From a virus: a DNA stretch of 21,947 bases. A program made the translations under genes and the position numbers. The notes beneath the pieces were generated by a model, which saw only the letters and a program-made list of their open reading frames with translations, did not search any database and was not told where the DNA came from. Shown one piece after another: positions 2,190 through 20,907 of the stretch; the stretch's first letter is position 1, and every line of letters begins with the position of its first letter. The stretch is taken from positions 1 to 21,947 of IMG/VR virus record IMGVR_UViG_3300025120_000639; one strand, 5' to 3'.

Positions 2190-2765
2190 ATGATTAGAGA
2201 TATATTTAAAATACCCTTATACGAGACGCCTTTATCACTAGATTTAAAATCAATTCGGTCTCATTGTCTATCATTGGCCAAAATCGAAAAGGGTCGTACA
2301 TTAACAAATATTGGTGGTTGGCAATCAAATGATCTTTCATTAAAAGAGCCGCCATTACAACCCTTTTACAAAGATATTACATACCACGCTCATAAGTTTT
2401 TAGAGACATTAGAGTTTAATGGTGTTTTATCTTTAGCTAATGTATGGGTTAATATAAACGGTTACAAAGATTATAATTTAACACACCAACACAATCATAG
2501 TTTTTTAAGTGGTGTTTATTATGTACATACACCTAAGAATTGTGGTAATATAGAATTTCACAGGCCTGGTATTGATGTATTTAACTATGATTGGAATACT
2601 CAAACAAATTTTAATTGGTACAACTCTGCCACTAGGTGGCAACGTCCTTCACCGTCTATGTTATATCTCTTTCCTAGTTGGCTACAACATTTGGTAGAGC
2701 CTAATTTAAATAAAAAAGAAAAGCGTATATCTATCTCTTTTAACTTTTCTTTAAAGGCTCACTAA
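2190..2765 (+). CDS. 2-oxoglutarate/Fe(II)-dependent oxygenase-like protein (TIGR02466 type)
   Basis: The 191-residue protein has the layout of the small 2OG-Fe(II) oxygenases common in marine phages. A histidine-rich metal site lies at about residues 99-103 (HQHNH), followed by FLSGVYYVHTP. A second region at residues 161-186 reads FPSWLQHLVEP, then RISISFNF. Likely iron ligands are H101 and H167 plus a residue near H103; R179 is the likely 2-oxoglutarate contact. The family couples oxidation of a substrate to decarboxylation of 2-oxoglutarate; the substrate here is unknown. It heads a block with an Fe-S carrier (2823) and an unknown gene (3137), and is clearly richer in AT than the genes to its left. 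No exact late promoter is seen just upstream; TATAAATG at 1946 is a weak candidate. Confidence 0.75.
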   Translation: MIRDIFKIPLYETPLSLDLKSIRSHCLSLAKIEKGRTLTNIGGWQSNDLSLKEPPLQPFYKDITYHAHKFLETLEFNGVLSLANVWVNINGYKDYNLTHQHNHSFLSGVYYVHTPKNCGNIEFHRPGIDVFNYDWNTQTNFNWYNSATRWQRPSPSMLYLFPSWLQHLVEPNLNKKEKRISISFNFSLKAH

Positions 2766-2822: not shown

Positions 2823-3137
2823 ATGATTAAACTATCCGATAATGCCTTATTAAGGTTAAGAGAATTACGAACCAAGAACAATAAGCCTTTTGTACGTTTA
2901 GATATAAAAGGTGGTGGTTGTGCTGGCTTTGAATATACTTGGTCTTATGCGGACGAAGAACAACGAAATGATTGTCTTGTTGATAATGTGTTGTTGGTAA
3001 GTAGAGATTACGAATTGTATCTTATGGGTTTAGAATTAGATTATAGTTTTGATGATTTTGAATCAATGTTTAAGTTTAACAATCCAAAGGCGACAAGTTC
3101 TTGTGGTTGTGGTACATCATTTAGTATAGGGTCATAA
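2823..3137 (+). CDS. A-type Fe-S cluster carrier, IscA/HesB-like
   Basis: This 104-residue protein has the three conserved cysteines of the HesB/IscA/ErpA family: C33 in GGGCAGFEY, and C94 and C96 in SCGCGTSF near the C-terminus. The length is typical of the family, which has about 105-120 residues. Such proteins bind a [2Fe-2S] or [4Fe-4S] cluster, or iron, and pass it to client proteins. HesB-like genes are known in marine T4-like phages, where they are taken as host-derived auxiliary genes. The gene ends at 3137, where the next gene's ATG begins (TAATG overlap), so the two are likely translated together. An iron-dependent oxygenase lies just upstream; an iron-related shared theme is an inference. 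All key residues are intact. Confidence 0.87.
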   Translation: MIKLSDNALLRLRELRTKNNKPFVRLDIKGGGCAGFEYTWSYADEEQRNDCLVDNVLLVSRDYELYLMGLELDYSFDDFESMFKFNNPKATSSCGCGTSFSIGS

Positions 3138-4139: not shown

Positions 4140-4217
4140 ATAATACAATCGTTTATCCTAAAACGGACGGAAGTAAACCATTAAGGTTGAAGAAACGCTC
4201 TTTTAAAAGGAGTATGT

Positions 4218-4373
4218 ATGGACTTAATAAAAGACCTACGAGCTCTCAAAAAAGAGAAAAGATATAAAATCTCTGCTAGAGCTCAATTAAGAAAAAGAAG
4301 TAAAGATAGTATTGCCAGACCAAAGGCAAAGAAAAATCTTTTTTCTAATGATCCACGTTTACAAGGGATTTAG
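4218..4373 (+). CDS. Small basic protein, 51 aa
   Basis: This short gene encodes 51 residues with a strong excess of lysine and arginine and ends NDPRLQGI. The ATG at 4218 is preceded by AAAAGGAG with about five bases of spacing, the best ribosome-binding site in this part of the window. A competing ATG at 4214 opens a 17-codon frame and is less well placed. A late promoter box lies at 4132 and another follows the stop at 4376. I know of no function. A small nucleic-acid-binding or virion-associated protein would fit the composition, but this is a guess from charge only. Late expression is supported by the promoter. Confidence 0.6.
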   Translation: MDLIKDLRALKKEKRYKISARAQLRKRSKDSIARPKAKKNLFSNDPRLQGI

Positions 4374-4486: not shown

Positions 4487-4560
4487 TGGTACAGGTGACC
4501 TGAATCGAACAGATAATTTTTGTACCACAAACAAACGTTTTACCATTAAACTACACCTGC
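4487..4560 (-). tRNA. tRNA-His (anticodon GTG), CCA encoded
   Basis: The reverse strand folds into a full cloverleaf of 74 bases including CCA. The acceptor is GCAGGTG with CACCTGT (a G-U pair at 1:72). The D-stem is GTTT/AAAC, with GG in the loop. The anticodon stem TTTGT/ACAAA closes loop TTGTGGT with anticodon GTG. The T-stem is ATCTG/CAGGT with T-loop TTCGATT. The discriminator base is A73 and the base before position 1 is A, so the extra G(-1) paired with C73 that marks most histidine tRNAs is absent. Published work reports this loss in a group of alphaproteobacteria including Pelagibacter. The tRNA begins four bases after the stop of the gene at 4565 and is probably processed from the same transcript. 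Confidence 0.92.
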
Positions 4561-13147: not shown

Positions 13148-16100
13148 ATGCCAAGTCCAACAGACTTTAACCTCTCGCCTTACTATGATGACTTTACGGA
13201 AAGTAAAAAATTCCATAGAGTTCTTTTTAGACCAGCATTTGCTGTACAGGCTAGAGAGTTAACAACATCACAAACAATATTACAAAACCAAATCGAAAGA
13301 GTTGGCGATCACCTATTTAAAAAAGGTGCGATGGTTATTCCTGGTCAAGTATCTATTGACACACAATATTATGCTGTCAAGTTAACAAGTATTGATAGTT
13401 CAAACACTTTATCTCACTTTACAGTAGGAACAATTTTAACTGGTGGTACTTCAGGTGTAACTGCTGAGATTACAAAAACAGAAGCTACAGACGGTACTGA
13501 TCCAGATACAATATTTGTAAAGTATTCTAAAACAGGTTCAAACAATTCTATCACAACTTTTAGTGATAGTGAAACAATTACAGGAACAAATAGTGATAGT
13601 GTTTCTTTATCTGCTGTTGTAAACACAACTGCCACAGGTTCAGCGGCTGGTGTTCAAGCAGGTGTATATTATATAAATGGTTTTTTTGTACAAGTTGACT
13701 CTTCAACTTTAATACTAGACAAATATACAGACACACCATCATATAGAATAGGATTTACGGTAACAGAATCATTTGTAACACCAAGTGATGACACAACTTT
13801 AAATGATAACGCTGCTGGTTCATCAAACGTAAATGCTCCAGGTGCTCACAGATTTAAAATTTTATTAACACTTGCTAAGAAAACTTTAGCTTCTACCGAA
13901 GATGAAAACTTTTATGAAATTGCTAGAGTTGTAAATGGTAATATTAAAACAATTGTAAGAAATACAGAATATGCTGTACTAGAAGACACACTTGCTCGTA
14001 GAACATTTGACGAATCAGGTGATTATGTTTTAAGAAATCCAGATTTTGATGTAAGAGAACATTTAGCCTCAGGTAATAATAGAGGTATTAATACATTGGC
14101 TAATGGTGGTGACGCTACTAAACTCGCTTTAGGTGTATCGCCCTTTAAAGCATATGTAAAAGGTTATGAAGCTGAAAGATTAGGAACAACTTTTGTTGAT
14201 GTTGATAAAGCAAGAGATTTTGAAACAGCAAACAATAACAAAACAAGATTTAATGTTAAAAACTTTTTTAATGTTACAAATGTTTTTGGTTCGCCAGACA
14301 TAGGATTTGTTTCTGGTGATGTAGAGGCATTTAAAACTATAAACTTATATGATACGGCCACAAGCGCTAGAGGTACAGAGGTATCAACAGTTGGTACAAC
14401 CGTGCCACAAATTGGTCGTGCTAAATCTCGTGGCTTTGAAACTGTATCTGCTACAGACACAGATGATATAAACGCTACAAGTTCAATATTCAAACATTTC
14501 TTATTTGACATTGAGATGTTTACACACTTAAATGCTTTAGGCACAGCTTCATACACAACAGGTGAAGTTGTATCAGGAGCTACTTCAGGTGCCACAGGTA
14601 TTGTACAAAGTATAACGGCGACTAGAAATACAGCAGTTACTTCTATCACAGCTTCAGGCACAGATATGGAAGGCCAGTTTTCAGCGGCCGTTGTTACTTT
14701 AAGTAATCACGGTATTACAGATGGTCAACAAATTCATTTAACAGGTGGTAGTTTTCAAATAGACTCAACAGCAACAAGTGATACCACAGTTTACACAGCT
14801 AGAAATACAACAGCAAATACTTTTGAATTATTTGACTCTGCTGGTACAACATTAGTAAATGTAACATCATTTAGTTCAGCACCTACTTTAGAACATACAA
14901 CAATTGTTGTTGGTAATGTTGAAGGAACATTTAGTGCTGGTGAAGTTATAACAGGTCAAACTTCAAACGCAGCTTTAACTTTACAATCAAACGCTTTAGG
15001 TTTTAAAGCAGTAGTCACAAGAGATATTACGGCAGTTAAACAAATTGGTATGGCAGGATCGCCAGCTTACACTGCTGATACATCATTAACATCAACTCAC
15101 GGTACAAACACTACAATTACAGGAAACGTTACGGTAGCTAATTCAGACGCTACGGTTTTTGGTAAAGGTACAAACTTTACAAATGATATTAAAATTGGTG
15201 ATTCAATTTCATTTACAAGTAACGCTGGTTCAACAATAACAGGTATTGTAAAATATATTGTATCTCAAACAGAATTAGAATTAACTGCCAATGTTGGTAG
15301 TTCAGATGTCACCACTGCTTCAGTTTTAACAAGAAAAAGAGCTAAATTAAATAATCCAGAAAACAATATTTCTTTATTTAAATTACCTTATGTGACAGTT
15401 AAAACTTTAAAAACAACAGCAAATAGTGGAGCAACTGATACTAACTTTAGTATTAGAAGAAACTTTACAGGCACATTATCATCTAACGGAGATGTTACAA
15501 TAACTGCCGGTACAAATGAAACATTTGCTTCTTTAGCGAGTGATGATTTCACAGCAACTATTATGACAACTGGCTCTGGTGGAACAGGCTCAGTTGGTGA
15601 TGTATTAAATTTATCAGGTAATAACCACGAGGGCGATGCTATATTTAATTTAACAGGTTCGCCAACTGGTAAAACTTTAAACCTTGACTTTGGTGCTAAC
15701 TTTCAAGGTCATAAAATAAAAATTTTAGCAACGGTACAAAGAACAGTTGCTGGTTCAAAAACAAAAACTTTAAACTCTGATCAAACGGTTGCCATCTCAA
15801 CACAAGCTACTATTGAAAGTGGTGTAATTGGTTTAGGCAAGGCTGATGTTTTTGCTTTAAACAATGTTTATATGTCATCTGGTTTTGGCTCAGCTGCTTC
15901 TTCAAGTGATACAGATATTACAAGTAGATTTGAATTAGATACAGGTCAAAGAGATAACTTCTATGACATAGGTAGAATTAGATTAAAACCTGGTGCTTTA
16001 AAACCAACAGGTAGATTACTTGTAGATTTTGATTTCTTTGCTCACGGTTCAGGCGATTACTTTGATGTAGATTCATATTCAGGTGTTGTTGATTACGAAA

Positions 16101-19100
16101 ACATACCAAATTATACTTCGGATACAACAGGTACAAAATTTGAATTAAGAGATGTAATAGATTTTAGACCTAGAGTTGATGACGCTAGTACAATTAATTC
16201 TGGTTCAAACGATAGAAGTTATGATGGAACAGGTGCTTCAACTGTTGATGTTGTACAATTTAATTCAGATATTACAGCAGATTTAGAATTTTTCTTAAAC
16301 AGAATAGACAAAGTTTTTATAACAAGAGAAGGTGTCTTAAAAGTATTAAAAGGTGCTTCTGCTTTAAATCCGTTACAACCAGAAAATTTAGATGGTCATT
16401 TATTATTGGCCACATTAACAATACCTAGTTATACATTAAATACAGACGAGGTACAAATAGAAAAAGAAGACAATATCAGATACACAATGAGAGATATTGG
16501 TTCTTTAGAAAATAGAATTAAAAATATAGAGTATTACACACAACTTTCACTATTAGAAGCTGACGCACAATCTTTACAAATACAAGACGCTGATGGCTTT
16601 GATAGATTTAAAAATGGTTTTGTTGTAGATAACTTTACAGGACATAATGTTGGTGATGTAGGTAATAATGATTATAAACTATCAATAGATAGAGCAAGAG
16701 GTGAGGCAAGAACACCGTTTAATGAAGACGTTATAGAATTAGAAGAAGTTGATGATGATTTAACTTCTATATTAACTGCTGATAGAACAGCAGCTAATTA
16801 TCAAAAAACAGGTGACCTTATATCTTTACCATATACTGAAGCTAATTTTTTAGAACAACCATTTGCTTCTAAAACAGAAAATTTAAATCCTTTTTTAATT
16901 TTTGATTGGATAGGAAATATAGAATTAGATCCGCCAGTTGATGAGTGGAAAGAAACAAGAAGAGCTCCAGAATTAACAATATTTACAGGCCTTGGTACTT
17001 TTGACAATATGTTAAGAGAAAGAGGTTTAGCAAACACATCACAAGAAATACCAGTTGGTACAGAATGGAACGAGTGGCAAGATCAATGGTCAGGTAATCC
17101 TAGAACAAGTCAAACTTGGCAAGGTAATTCATTAGTACAAACAACAAGTAGAGATGTTGTACAAACAAGAGCTGGTATTAGAACAGCAATTGTTCCACAA
17201 ACTTTAAGACAAAGTTTAGGTAATAGAGTTATGTCAGTTGCCTTTATACCATTTATTAGAAGTAGAACAGTATCGTTTACAGCAAGAGGTATGAGACCTA
17301 ACACAAGAGTTTATCCTTTCTTTGATAACATAGATGTTTCAATTTATATAACACCAGATGGTGGTTCTTCCGGTGGTAATATTGTAACAGACGCTAATGG
17401 TTCGGTAACAGGATCGTTTGCTATACCTGATCCAAATGTTGATTCAAATCCAAGATGGCGAACAGGTAAAAGAATATTCAGATTAACAGCTTCAGCTACA
17501 AACGACCAAGATAGAACAAATGTGGCTACTTCAGCAGAGGCAGATTATGACGCTAAAGGTTTATTGGAAACTACACAAGAGGCTATAATTGCTACAAGAG
17601 AGGCAACAACTCAAAGAAGAAGTGTAACAGGTAATAGAACGACAAGTAGATCAGCAAGTAGAGTTATTGCTACACGACAACCTGATAACGGAGGTGGAAG
17701 AGACTCAAACGATGGTGGCGATAATGATCCGTTAGCACAATCATTTGTGATTGATGAAGAAGACGGTTTATTTGTAACAAGTTTAGATATTTTCTTTGCT
17801 ACAAAATCATCTACAATACCTGTTAGAGCAGAAATAAGAAATATGGTAAACGGTTATCCAGGTCAAAAAGTTATACCTTTCTCACAAAAATATTTAAATC
17901 CAAGTGCTATTAATACAAGTTCAGACGCTTCAACAGCAACGACATTTACTTTTGACGCTCCTGTTTATTTACAAGAGGGTGTTGAATATTGCACGGTATT
18001 ATATTCAGACTCATTAGATTATACGGTTTACATAGCGAGATTAGGTGATACGGTAATTGGTTCAGATAGAACGGTATCAAAACAACCAGCTGCTGGTGTA
18101 TTATTTAAATCATCTAACTATCGTACTTGGACACCTGAACAAATGGAAGATTTAAAATTTACTATGAAAAAGGCCGTATTTAATACAACTGCTTCAGGTA
18201 CTTTAACTTTAGCAAATCAAACTTTACCTGTAAAAACTTTAGAGGCTAATCCAATTAGAACATTTAATGGTACAGGTTTAATTAGAATATTCCACAAAAA
18301 TCACGGAATGCATTCAACAAGTGACAATGTTACAATTGCTGGTGTTTCATCTGGTACTTACAACGGTATTGCTCACTCTACTATTAACGGAACATATACA
18401 AGTATTTCAAACATCACACTTGATAGTTATGATGTTACAACTGCTGGCACAGCAAATGCTACCGGTGATGTTGGTGGTTCAAGTGTAACTGCTACACAAA
18501 ATAGATTATATGATGTATTACAACCACAAATTGGTCACGTAGTACACCCACAAACAAGTTTAACATCTACTTTAAGATCAGCAACTGGTAAATCAGTTAA
18601 TGGATCAGAAACACCATTTAGTTTACAAGCTACAACAGCGGCCGAAAATGTTGTATTAGGTGATAACTATTATTTTGATAATCCAAGATTAGTAGCAAGT
18701 GATATAAACCAAACAAACGAAATGTCTGGTTCAAAATCTTTTGTTATGAATTTAACAATAAGTTCATCAAATGCTAATTTATCTCCTATTATTGATTTAA
18801 AAAGAATAAATGCTTTTGCTATTTCAAACAGATTAAATAATCCATTAGTATCATCAACTGATACGCTTTCAGGAGATGGTTCAACAACAACATTTACTTT
18901 ATCAGGAGCTCCATCAAGTGTACATTTATTAGCAATTAAAAAAGATGGTAAAAAATTACAACCAATTGATGACTTTACAGTTTCAGGTACAACTTTAACT
19001 ATGGACTCAGCACCAGCTAATGGTTCAAAAGTTATTGCTAAATTAACTAATACAGTTGATTTTGAAGAAGATACAGCAACAGAGGGTGGTGCTTCTTCAG

Positions 19101-19462
19101 GTTCTTATATAACTAAATCAATTAATTTAGAAAATGCTTCAACAGCTTTAGAGGTTAGAGTGGCGGCTAGTGTTAGATCATCTTCATCAATTAAATGTTT
19201 CTTTAGATTATCAGGTGGTGAAGAAACAAGAAGAATAGAAGATATACCTTACACACCATTTAATACAGATGGTAGTTCAGATACATCAATTGATCCATCA
19301 AATGGAGATGTTGTATTAGATTTAGATTTCAAAGATTACAAATTTAGTGCTAGTTCTTTACCAGAGTTTACATCTTTTCAAATTAAGATTGTAATTAATG
19401 GTACGGTATCAGCTCTACCAGCAAGATTAAAAGATTTAAGAGCATTAGCATTGGCGGTATAA
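13148..19462 (+). CDS. Giant DUF4815-type tail/fibre structural protein, 2104 aa
   Basis: The N-terminus (SPYYDDFTESKKFHRVLFRPAFAV, cut here) with QARELTTSQTILQNQIE is the mark of DUF4815 proteins of marine T4-like phages, which are virion parts near the baseplate rim or fibres. Later blocks include GxITGxTSGA units near residues 95, 470 and 595; a NHGITDGQQIHLTGG unit near 514 with a looser copy near 1715; a conserved block near 937 (GRIRLKPGALKPTG); a domain at about 1325-1450; DPLAQSFVID near 1527, opening a possible carbohydrate-binding-like beta domain; and a GDGSTTTFTL unit near 1907, also found in the last gene of the window. It starts 10 bases after gp8, with GAGGG upstream. Structural role is likely; exact place in the tail is not known. 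Confidence 0.8.
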   Translation: MPSPTDFNLSPYYDDFTESKKFHRVLFRPAFAVQARELTTSQTILQNQIERVGDHLFKKGAMVIPGQVSIDTQYYAVKLTSIDSSNTLSHFTVGTILTGGTSGVTAEITKTEATDGTDPDTIFVKYSKTGSNNSITTFSDSETITGTNSDSVSLSAVVNTTATGSAAGVQAGVYYINGFFVQVDSSTLILDKYTDTPSYRIGFTVTESFVTPSDDTTLNDNAAGSSNVNAPGAHRFKILLTLAKKTLASTEDENFYEIARVVNGNIKTIVRNTEYAVLEDTLARRTFDESGDYVLRNPDFDVREHLASGNNRGINTLANGGDATKLALGVSPFKAYVKGYEAERLGTTFVDVDKARDFETANNNKTRFNVKNFFNVTNVFGSPDIGFVSGDVEAFKTINLYDTATSARGTEVSTVGTTVPQIGRAKSRGFETVSATDTDDINATSSIFKHFLFDIEMFTHLNALGTASYTTGEVVSGATSGATGIVQSITATRNTAVTSITASGTDMEGQFSAAVVTLSNHGITDGQQIHLTGGSFQIDSTATSDTTVYTARNTTANTFELFDSAGTTLVNVTSFSSAPTLEHTTIVVGNVEGTFSAGEVITGQTSNAALTLQSNALGFKAVVTRDITAVKQIGMAGSPAYTADTSLTSTHGTNTTITGNVTVANSDATVFGKGTNFTNDIKIGDSISFTSNAGSTITGIVKYIVSQTELELTANVGSSDVTTASVLTRKRAKLNNPENNISLFKLPYVTVKTLKTTANSGATDTNFSIRRNFTGTLSSNGDVTITAGTNETFASLASDDFTATIMTTGSGGTGSVGDVLNLSGNNHEGDAIFNLTGSPTGKTLNLDFGANFQGHKIKILATVQRTVAGSKTKTLNSDQTVAISTQATIESGVIGLGKADVFALNNVYMSSGFGSAASSSDTDITSRFELDTGQRDNFYDIGRIRLKPGALKPTGRLLVDFDFFAHGSGDYFDVDSYSGVVDYENIPNYTSDTTGTKFELRDVIDFRPRVDDASTINSGSNDRSYDGTGASTVDVVQFNSDITADLEFFLNRIDKVFITREGVLKVLKGASALNPLQPENLDGHLLLATLTIPSYTLNTDEVQIEKEDNIRYTMRDIGSLENRIKNIEYYTQLSLLEADAQSLQIQDADGFDRFKNGFVVDNFTGHNVGDVGNNDYKLSIDRARGEARTPFNEDVIELEEVDDDLTSILTADRTAANYQKTGDLISLPYTEANFLEQPFASKTENLNPFLIFDWIGNIELDPPVDEWKETRRAPELTIFTGLGTFDNMLRERGLANTSQEIPVGTEWNEWQDQWSGNPRTSQTWQGNSLVQTTSRDVVQTRAGIRTAIVPQTLRQSLGNRVMSVAFIPFIRSRTVSFTARGMRPNTRVYPFFDNIDVSIYITPDGGSSGGNIVTDANGSVTGSFAIPDPNVDSNPRWRTGKRIFRLTASATNDQDRTNVATSAEADYDAKGLLETTQEAIIATREATTQRRSVTGNRTTSRSASRVIATRQPDNGGGRDSNDGGDNDPLAQSFVIDEEDGLFVTSLDIFFATKSSTIPVRAEIRNMVNGYPGQKVIPFSQKYLNPSAINTSSDASTATTFTFDAPVYLQEGVEYCTVLYSDSLDYTVYIARLGDTVIGSDRTVSKQPAAGVLFKSSNYRTWTPEQMEDLKFTMKKAVFNTTASGTLTLANQTLPVKTLEANPIRTFNGTGLIRIFHKNHGMHSTSDNVTIAGVSSGTYNGIAHSTINGTYTSISNITLDSYDVTTAGTANATGDVGGSSVTATQNRLYDVLQPQIGHVVHPQTSLTSTLRSATGKSVNGSETPFSLQATTAAENVVLGDNYYFDNPRLVASDINQTNEMSGSKSFVMNLTISSSNANLSPIIDLKRINAFAISNRLNNPLVSSTDTLSGDGSTTTFTLSGAPSSVHLLAIKKDGKKLQPIDDFTVSGTTLTMDSAPANGSKVIAKLTNTVDFEEDTATEGGASSGSYITKSINLENASTALEVRVAASVRSSSSIKCFFRLSGGEETRRIEDIPYTPFNTDGSSDTSIDPSNGDVVLDLDFKDYKFSASSLPEFTSFQIKIVINGTVSALPARLKDLRALALAV

Positions 19463-19463
19463 T

Positions 19464-19685
19464 ATGAATTATGTAAAAATACAAGGTTTTGAAAGTTTAG
19501 TAAAAGATACAAAATCAAATGCTATTGTAAATACAAATAAAACTGATTTTCAACTTTATATGAAAAGAAAAAAAGAAAGAAATCAAACAGGTGATAAATT
19601 AAGAGACGTGTGTAAAGAAATAAATACTATAAAAACAGAATTTAAAGAAATTAAAAGTTTATTAATAAAGGTATTAGAGAAATAA
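19464..19685 (+). CDS. Small protein with C-terminal coiled coil, 73 aa
   Basis: The first half (MNYVKIQGFESLVKDTKSNAIVNTN, cut here) resembles short proteins that follow the large structural gene in marine T4-like phages. The second half (LRDVCKEINTIKTEFKEIKSLLIKVLEK in full) has regular hydrophobic spacing, as in a coiled coil. It starts one base after the 2104-residue gene and ends one base before the fibre gene at 19687. It may be a minor virion part or a trimerisation aid for the adjacent fibres, by position only. There is no clear function and no cysteine-based motif. Confidence 0.65.
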   Translation: MNYVKIQGFESLVKDTKSNAIVNTNKTDFQLYMKRKKERNQTGDKLRDVCKEINTIKTEFKEIKSLLIKVLEK

Positions 19686-19686
19686 A

Positions 19687-20508
19687 ATGGCCGCAAGATC
19701 AGTAACAACAACAAATACACTAGAGCAGTTTCGTACAACTTTTAATAGTTTGTCGGGTACTGATATAGGTGATGTAGCTAGTCTATCAACGACAGCCTCA
19801 TCAATTGTTGGTGCTATAAATGAAATTAATTCATCTGTAACTGCTACAGGTTTTATATTAGAAGATGATAGTTCTACAACACAAACTATTGTAGCGGGTA
19901 ATACATTAAAAGTTTCAAGTGGTTCAGGTATTTCTGCTCTTGTATCAGCAACAGATACTTTAACTATATCAGTAGCAGGTGGTGATATAAGTCAAAATGT
20001 TTATTTTGACCAAATTGGTGTTCAACACAACGCTGATGGTTCTAATACTTACACAAGTTTAACGGTGGCTGTAGCTTCAAAAACTACTGCTCATATCTAT
20101 CAAGGTACAGGTTCTAGTAACGGTTATACAATTGATGGTGTAGAAGGCCCTTTTTTAAATATGAAAGTGGGCAATACATACAGATTTGACCAAGCAGACA
20201 GTACAAATAGTGGACACCCATTAAGATTTTATTATGACGCTGGTAAAACAACAATATATTCAACAGGTGTAACAACAAATGGAACGCCTGGTAGTTCTGG
20301 TGCTTATACTCAAATTGTAGTATCAGAAACAACACCAAATATATTGTATTATCAATGTAGTTCACACGCTCATATGGGTAGTCGGGTGGATACAGATTCG
20401 TCAACCAACGTTATTGATTCATCAACAGCATTCGTAGATTCAACTGGAACAGCAACAATATTTGCCTCACAAGCATTTTCAATTGCTCAGGCGGTTGCTC
20501 TAGGATAA
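19687..20508 (+). CDS. Tail fibre-like protein with cupredoxin-type C-terminal domain
   Basis: Residues 1-50 (TLEQFRTTFNSLS, then SIVGAINEIN) look like the helical attachment segment of marine phage fibre proteins. Residues about 55-100 are beta-rich. Residues about 133-233 form a domain with GNTYRFDQAD, GHPLRFYY (H177), AYTQIVVS and YYQCSSHAHMG (C224, H227, M230). One His, then Cys-x2-His-x2-Met, is the ligand set and spacing of a type 1 copper site as in amicyanin. Related domains are common in marine phage structural proteins, as I recall. Whether metal binds is not shown. The last 40 residues are Ser/Thr-rich and may be a tip. A late promoter follows the gene. Confidence 0.7.
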   Translation: MAARSVTTTNTLEQFRTTFNSLSGTDIGDVASLSTTASSIVGAINEINSSVTATGFILEDDSSTTQTIVAGNTLKVSSGSGISALVSATDTLTISVAGGDISQNVYFDQIGVQHNADGSNTYTSLTVAVASKTTAHIYQGTGSSNGYTIDGVEGPFLNMKVGNTYRFDQADSTNSGHPLRFYYDAGKTTIYSTGVTTNGTPGSSGAYTQIVVSETTPNILYYQCSSHAHMGSRVDTDSSTNVIDSSTAFVDSTGTATIFASQAFSIAQAVALG

Positions 20509-20538: not shown

Positions 20539-20907
20539 ATGGCTAACGATTTTAAAAGATTTGCGAAACCAAGTGTAGGAACAAGCACAGGAGCTTCAGC
20601 TGACGCTGTATATACAGTTCCAGCAGGGGCAGGATCATCAGCGTTAGAATCAATCATAATCGGAATAACTTTAGCAAATAAAACATCAACAGGTGTAACT
20701 GCTTCGGTATTTTTAGATAACGAAGATGGTTCAAATGATGTTTTTATTGTAAAGGACGCTACAGTCCCAGCAGGCTCTTCATTAGAAATAATGGCAGGAA
20801 ATAAACTAGTAGTACAAAACGATGGCAGTAATGCTGACGTTGTTAGAATTTCTTGTGGAACAGGTTCTGCTTTAGATGCAATTGTAACTGTACTTGAAGA
20901 CGTATAA
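20539..20907 (+). CDS. Small virion structural protein, beta-rich, 122 aa
   Basis: The protein starts MANDFKRFAKPSVGT and consists of alternating beta strands (SIIIGITLANKT, then VTASVFLDN and DVFIVKDATVPAGSSLEI), with Gly/Ser-rich turns. This is consistent with a compact jelly-roll or Ig-like sandwich of the kind found in small phage tail and fibre-associated proteins. It has its own late promoter (20512) and a good ribosome-binding site, so it is probably made in quantity. It lies between two fibre-type genes. I cannot name a T4 counterpart; the structural role is inferred from composition and context. Confidence 0.65.
   Translation: MANDFKRFAKPSVGTSTGASADAVYTVPAGAGSSALESIIIGITLANKTSTGVTASVFLDNEDGSNDVFIVKDATVPAGSSLEIMAGNKLVVQNDGSNADVVRISCGTGSALDAIVTVLEDV

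Follow-up and report, generated by a model that had tools for sequence, protein, structure and literature searches.

The stretch of DNA analysed here (the window, 21,947 bases) is the entire IMG/VR virus record IMGVR_UViG_3300025120_000639. On the 5' side of the gene of interest, which encodes the protein P0001 (Table 1), lie genes for a gp5-like hub (PF06714), a PAAR protein (PF05488), a gp6-like wedge protein (PF21379) and a gp8-like wedge protein (phrog_438, E 2.3e-140). When gp8 was compared with phages of known host, Pelagibacter phages were nearest (Mosig, 68% identity; HTVC008M, 50%). The source is a T4-like marine phage, and its nearest known-host relative by the gp8 gene is a Pelagibacter phage.

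Table 1. Features of the window, numbered from its first base.
Feature	Position	Strand	Basis or remark
Putative 2OG-Fe(II) oxygenase	2190..2765	+	PF13759, E 8e-24
Iron-sulphur cluster biosynthesis protein	2823..3137	+	PF01521, E 5.5e-12
Glutamine riboswitch (RF01739)	4148..4201	+	50.8 bits; cut-off 35
51-aa lysine/arginine-rich ORF	4218..4373	+	Just downstream of the glutamine riboswitch
tRNA-His gene, anticodon gtg	4487..4560	-	
2104-aa gene, phrog_358	13148..19462	+	Upstream; shared context
73-aa gene, phrog_473 (virion structural protein)	19464..19685	+	Upstream; shared context
P0001, 273-aa predicted tail-fibre protein	19687..20508, including stop codon	+	ORF translation; phrog_30742, E 2.7e-45
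P0001 N-terminal part, residues 1-104	19687..19998	+	Low confidence in full-length model
Predicted cupredoxin-type domain, residues ~121-238	20047..20400	+	AlphaFold2 model; fold matches
H177, proposed ligand	20215..20217	+	Translation; His in 193/193 distinct relatives
C224-x2-H227-x2-M230 loop, three proposed ligands	20356..20376	+	190/191 testable relatives
P0001 C-terminal tail, FSIAQAVALG	20476..20505	+	Conserved with same-slot proteins
122-aa gene	20539..20907	+	Downstream; shared context; 71% identity in L018

Several features elsewhere in the window are worth recording. The adjoining oxygenase and iron-sulphur genes are two iron-related genes amid tail genes. A glutamine riboswitch and a tRNA-His gene were also found, and a snoRNA match at 4197-4297 was dismissed as far below cut-off. 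In the phage Melnitz, a glutamine riboswitch is reported to control a viral tmRNA (PMC9004378); a search of the window for a tmRNA found none.

P0001 matched three PHROGs families: phrog_30742 (tail fiber), phrog_677 (labelled baseplate wedge/tail fibre connector; E 1.6e-11) and phrog_693 (E 6.4e-7). Its relatives are labelled tail fibre in Mosig, Melnitz and P-SSM2, baseplate wedge tail fibre connector in S-RIM2, and gp7 baseplate wedge initiator in P-HM1 and P-HM2. The best PHROG match spans residues 118-246, which is the domain itself, and therefore gives no independent proof of fibre identity. Together, the protein families, the annotated relatives and the gene position indicate that P0001 is likely to be a fibre or baseplate-attached protein.

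The first-pass annotation had placed a candidate metal site, H177 and C224-x2-H227-x2-M230, in this protein, and translation of the ORF returned the four residues at exactly those positions (codons 20356-20358 for C224, 20365-20367 for H227 and 20374-20376 for M230). C224 is the sole cysteine of P0001 and is thus without a disulfide partner in the same chain. A single cysteine was likewise found in each of 13 same-architecture proteins (P0001 and 12 relatives), which leaves no partner for a disulfide within the chain; the fourteenth aligned row, the domain-less protein of locus L018, contains no cysteine at all. When P0001 was shuffled 200,000 times, the C..H..M pattern arose in 44 shuffles, and in 27 with a histidine 20-80 residues before the cysteine. 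A chance motif is disfavoured by these shuffles and by conservation, and the conservation in scans whose queries lacked the C/H/M stretch (see below) is the stronger of the two arguments.

The structure of the domain was predicted with AlphaFold2 from 20047-20406 (120 residues), using an alignment of 51 domain sequences (A2). The resulting model had nine strands, a mean pLDDT of 96.9 and a pTM of 0.89. A full-length model of P0001 had a mean pLDDT of 67.5; it was confident over residues 121-238 and little else folded, although it was computed as a single chain and the protein may be a trimer, so that the prediction can mislead. The stretch singled out in the first-pass annotation (20083-20385, residues 133-233) is slightly shorter than the predicted domain.

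A Foldseek search of the PDB with the domain model placed rusticyanin at the top (E 3.2e-3); none of 1,290 matches fell below E 0.001. Among the matches listed, 49 of 50 were cupredoxin-fold proteins by name, including rusticyanin, nitrite reductases, laccases and amicyanin, and one was a semaphorin; the count takes the A domains of coagulation factors V/VIII to be of cupredoxin fold, which is our assumption. TM-scores by query length were ~0.34-0.55 among the matches listed. With VIA-align, 50 of 50 of the matches listed were laccases or nitrite reductases, and the best superposition was on the N-terminal part of the Hyphomicrobium nitrite reductase 2dv6 (Z 9.6, r.m.s.d. 2.6 over 100 residues), a score that is good rather than overwhelming, since the tool warns that top Z values of 7-8 are common in their own right. 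Within the model, H177 immediately precedes the strand after the Y-x-F strand, C224 closes the penultimate strand, and the loop leading into the last strand contains H227 and M230; this order is the arrangement of cupredoxins. The beta-sandwich-like domain proposed in the first-pass annotation is thus borne out by the AlphaFold2 model, Foldseek and VIA-align, all of which point to a cupredoxin-type beta-sandwich.

In a library of viral structures, 67 matches to the domain model passed E 0.001, and the named ones included phage tail fibre and structural proteins. The close structural neighbours also included giant-virus 'beta-sandwich proteins' (E 1e-8 to 3e-7) from Pithovirus LCPAC302/304 (A0A481Z6J5, A0A481Z7Q7) and Marseillevirus LCMAC201/202 (A0A481YWX9, A0A481YY19).

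Conservation was read from a diverse alignment of 30 rows (A4), made up of the window, 15 annotated phages, eight further viral contigs and six cellular-assembly sequences. Its mean column identity was 35%, and six of its 120 columns were invariant: Y165, F167, H177, C224, H227 and M230. All four proposed ligands, which had been named beforehand, fall among these six, an outcome with a chance of 1.8e-6 on the assumption that the columns are equivalent and do not depend on one another. The 15 annotated phages, drawn from 60 among the matches listed of 179 records, lean towards keeping the motif, as the search query that found them contained it.

Because some rows of A4 had been found with motif-containing queries, viral contigs were scanned three times with queries lacking the C/H/M stretch, taken from the window, from the Synechococcus phage S-B68 and from S-RIM2. 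The best 80 loci of each scan were retained (of at least 593 for the window, at least 599 for S-B68 and 481 for S-RIM2), which after removal of duplicates left 75, 79 and 39 distinct places, respectively. A histidine at the position of H177 was present in all 193 distinct places among these best loci; one of the six patterns in the S-B68 scan contained this histidine, and without that scan the count was 114 of 114. C-x2-H-x2-M was present in 190 of 191 places among the same best 80 loci per scan, two others being cut by the contig end. The sole exception (L143, downstream of 103-384) has C-x4-H-x2-M, a longer loop with all ligands, and a further variant (L193, 1501-1773) has C-x2-H-x3-M, again with all ligands present. 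Variation in loop length with every ligand retained is the behaviour expected of a metal site. H136 (20092-20094) is a histidine in 72 of 72 close relatives; it was set aside as a further ligand because it is missing in many distant ones.

Profile searches against the PDB (177,635 sequences, matches at E<=10) gave a weak link between copper proteins and the family. With A1, a profile built from 11 relatives, there were three matches, all weak and all copper proteins: pseudoazurin (E 0.016), a multicopper oxidase (E 0.032) and a copper nitrite reductase (E 0.94). The phage Cys-x2-His was paired with the Cys-x2-His of pseudoazurin and of the second domain of nitrite reductase, and in the multicopper oxidase the cysteine alone was paired. 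Profile A2 recovered two of the three, pseudoazurin and the multicopper oxidase. The more diverse A4 gave ten matches at E<=10, of which six were copper proteins (E 0.015-0.28) and the others were SUMO-2, a cerato-platanin-like protein, a mutarotase-related protein and VibO (E 0.16-1.1), so that the all-copper outcome of A1 and A2 hinges on the alignment used. The single P0001 sequence, searched against the PDB at E<=10, matched no copper protein and had one match, alpha-dystroglycan (E 0.67).

The family was also compared by hhalign with 22 Copper-bind (PF00127) domains, collected from the phylum of the Flavobacterium assembly, where 26 of 80 genomes have one. All four ligands were paired with their counterparts (His/His, Cys/Cys, His/His and Met/Met), with an E of 2.4e-4 for this single comparison and a probability of 44%. 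The C-x2-H-x2-M spacing, which is that of amicyanin, also occurs in 9 of the 22 fetched domains. The residue after the first histidine differs: it is asparagine in 18 of the 22 PF00127 rows and proline in P0001. Among 239 distinct domain cores, which were chosen by a ligand-containing pattern and are informative only for the residue after this histidine and the number of cysteines, that residue was Pro in 218, Ala in 8, Gln in 7 and Ser in 6, and 239 of 239 cores had one cysteine each.

The first-pass annotation had likened the site to type 1 copper proteins such as amicyanin. The ligand set does align with that of Copper-bind domains and the C-x2-H-x2-M spacing is the right one, but proline replaces the usual asparagine after the first histidine, so that the likeness holds for the ligands and their spacing and fails at the neighbouring residue. 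In such proteins the residue after the first histidine donates a backbone NH to the cysteine sulfur, which proline cannot do, and an altered redox potential would therefore be expected in the phage site.

No match to P0001 was found for PF00127 at E<=10 or in NCBIfam, none of the curated cupredoxin models reached its cut-off for P0001, and for 30 relatives the families listed at E<=0.1 did not include PF00127. The only Pfam family that matched P0001 was PF25489 (At5g54830-like domain; E 0.0045), over residues 187-235, a region that takes in C224, H227 and M230. Its scores (17.4 bits for whole P0001, 20.1 bits for the domain) lie below the 27-bit gathering cut-off; among the 30 relatives, ten matched this family at E<=0.1 (best 7.3e-6). 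As the profile and Asn-after-His tests came out negative, we keep the domain out of PF00127 and of the amicyanins and plastocyanins. With a histidine followed by Cys-xn-His-xm-Met at the family positions, it is by sequence pattern a type-1-copper-like domain.

The first-pass annotation had also called similar domains frequent in marine phage proteins, and pattern scans of viral contigs (590, 481, at least 593 and at least 599 relatives, in sets that may overlap) together with the annotated phages agree with this. Among the matches listed, the named carrier phages infect marine Synechococcus, Prochlorococcus, SAR11 and OM43. The motif was found in 128 complete ORFs from 190 viral loci, a number that includes repeats of contigs fetched twice and near-identical pairs; these ORFs are 220 to 1934 residues long and have many different N-termini. 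Two domain copies were present in three of the 128 ORFs, two of these three being near-identical. No copper annotation was present in the records and families examined for relatives of the domain.

Two related loci hold the same gene slot without the domain. In L018 (4001-4663), the neighbouring genes correspond to those of the window: the two upstream (2104 aa, 44% identity; 73 aa, 50%) and the one downstream (122 aa, 71%). The L018 fibre shares its first ~50 and its last ten residues with P0001, and an unrelated repeat replaces the cupredoxin. The second locus (L017, 4001-5431) has the same upstream genes and fibre N-terminus, again without the domain. The start M-A-x-R-S-V...T-L-x-x-F-R-T-T-F-N of P0001 is common to these same-slot proteins. 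The presence or absence of the domain in one gene slot, and its occurrence behind many N-termini, show it to be a cassette exchanged between virion proteins. By these sequence comparisons it is an interchangeable unit that many proteins of marine phages carry.

The domain is rare in the sampled bacterial genomes. Of 198 genomes from the phylum to which the Flavobacterium assembly belongs, 4 had it; with a more stringent cut-off it was found in 2 of 299 genomes from the phylum of the Pelagibacterales assembly, each set including the assembly it was drawn from. Three of the bacterial relatives (L226, L227 and L228) are ORFs of 532-902 residues in which the ligands are kept in A4. Two others (L390 and L391), of 191 and 201 residues, are neighbours in one genome. 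The bacterial relatives possibly represent a cellular reservoir of the domain.

That the domain has a cupredoxin fold with a conserved metal-type site appears highly probable from the model and the alignments. It is quite probable that the site holds a metal in the virion, and fairly likely that this metal is copper. The site may instead bind a metal other than copper, such as zinc or iron acting as a staple in the fibre structure, which we consider unlikely. Two histidines and a cysteine can take zinc, and sequence alone fixes no metal. A point against the copper reading is that phage fibres are produced in the cytosol, which has very little free copper. An invariant methionine together with a cysteine and two histidines in such spacing is, however, the type 1 copper set, and the PDB families matched are copper proteins. 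Iron, for its part, has been described in T4-type fibres (PMC11705849).

A slightly smaller chance is given to the residues being kept for folding or for an apo function, as a packed loop with a buried cysteine that binds no metal. AlphaFold2 reaches high confidence without a metal, and close relatives are alike overall (59% mean column identity in A2), so that conservation among them is not specific. In the diverse alignment, by contrast, exactly the four ligands make up four of the six invariant columns, and the loop varies in length in L143 and L193 while all ligands stay. An ordinary immunoglobulin-like or carbohydrate-binding fibre domain with an incidental likeness to a copper site is very improbable: phage fibres contain many beta-sandwich domains, PF02018 (CBM_4_9) weakly matches 2 of 30 members (best E 0.0083) and among the viral structural neighbours one bears the name of an immunoglobulin-domain protein, but these matches are weak and scattered, whereas the fold and profile searches point to cupredoxins and the four ligand residues are invariant.

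Taken as a whole, we consider it likely that the virion carries, in this domain, a metal-binding module of cupredoxin type, with copper as the probable metal. The stretch highlighted in the first-pass annotation would be the core of a cupredoxin-type domain that folds independently within a probable fibre protein, and in this domain H177, C224, H227 and M230 would form a type-1-like site for, most likely, one copper ion. By locking or stiffening the C-H-M loop, the metal may give that end of the sandwich a fixed shape, and the fibre may offer this metal-fixed end to the host surface. The module is flanked by conserved parts on both sides, an N-terminal attachment part and a C-terminal tail. 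Its position between conserved ends and its exchange among virion proteins suggest that its likeliest job would be a surface-exposed, metal-stabilised contact or adhesion. Such a structural or adhesive role seems likelier than electron transfer, for which no partner is known. A role specifically in host contact remains tentative, with rather less than an even chance.

A more far-reaching proposal, which we regard as improbable, is a copper-dependent step of infection, in which type 1 copper centres on the fibres of picocyanobacteria, SAR11 and OM43 phages would, for example, dock on a copper-handling surface protein of the host or undergo a redox- or copper-triggered change on contact. If true, it would be for copper what the 'Trojan horse' proposal is for iron, and virions would form a marine pool of organically bound copper. 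Should the domain bind copper, phage particles would be among the organic copper ligands of seawater. Electron carriers and enzymes are the known settings of type 1 copper sites; a strictly conserved type-1-like site as an exchangeable part of virion proteins would be a new one, and the metal-dependent adsorption step that it implies could be tested. Among the listed matches of searches in open-licence PubMed Central papers, none described a copper or cupredoxin domain in a phage fibre; an earlier description elsewhere is possible.

In its predicted fold and aligned ligand pattern, the phage domain resembles the cupredoxins (amicyanin, pseudoazurin, plastocyanin, rusticyanin and the T1 domains of nitrite reductase). 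It differs from them in belonging to a virion protein rather than being a free electron carrier or an enzyme domain, and in being too diverged for the curated profiles. Its cores carry His-Pro (218 of 239), in contrast to the His-Asn of Copper-bind rows (18 of 22). The likeness of P0001 to PF25489, a family named after a plant protein, is a weak sequence match below cut-off. By sequence, P0001 belongs with phrog_30742, phrog_677 and phrog_693, the labels of which, unlike the reading proposed here, mention no metal site. The closest idea in print that we found is that HxH motifs bind iron in the fibres of phages, together with the Trojan Horse hypothesis, as set out for T4 gp37 and alterophage R22Y (PMC11705849). 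Both cases concern a putative metal in a phage fibre that is proposed to serve host recognition, whereas the phage domain described here has other ligands and, presumably, another metal than the iron of those fibres (PMC11705849).
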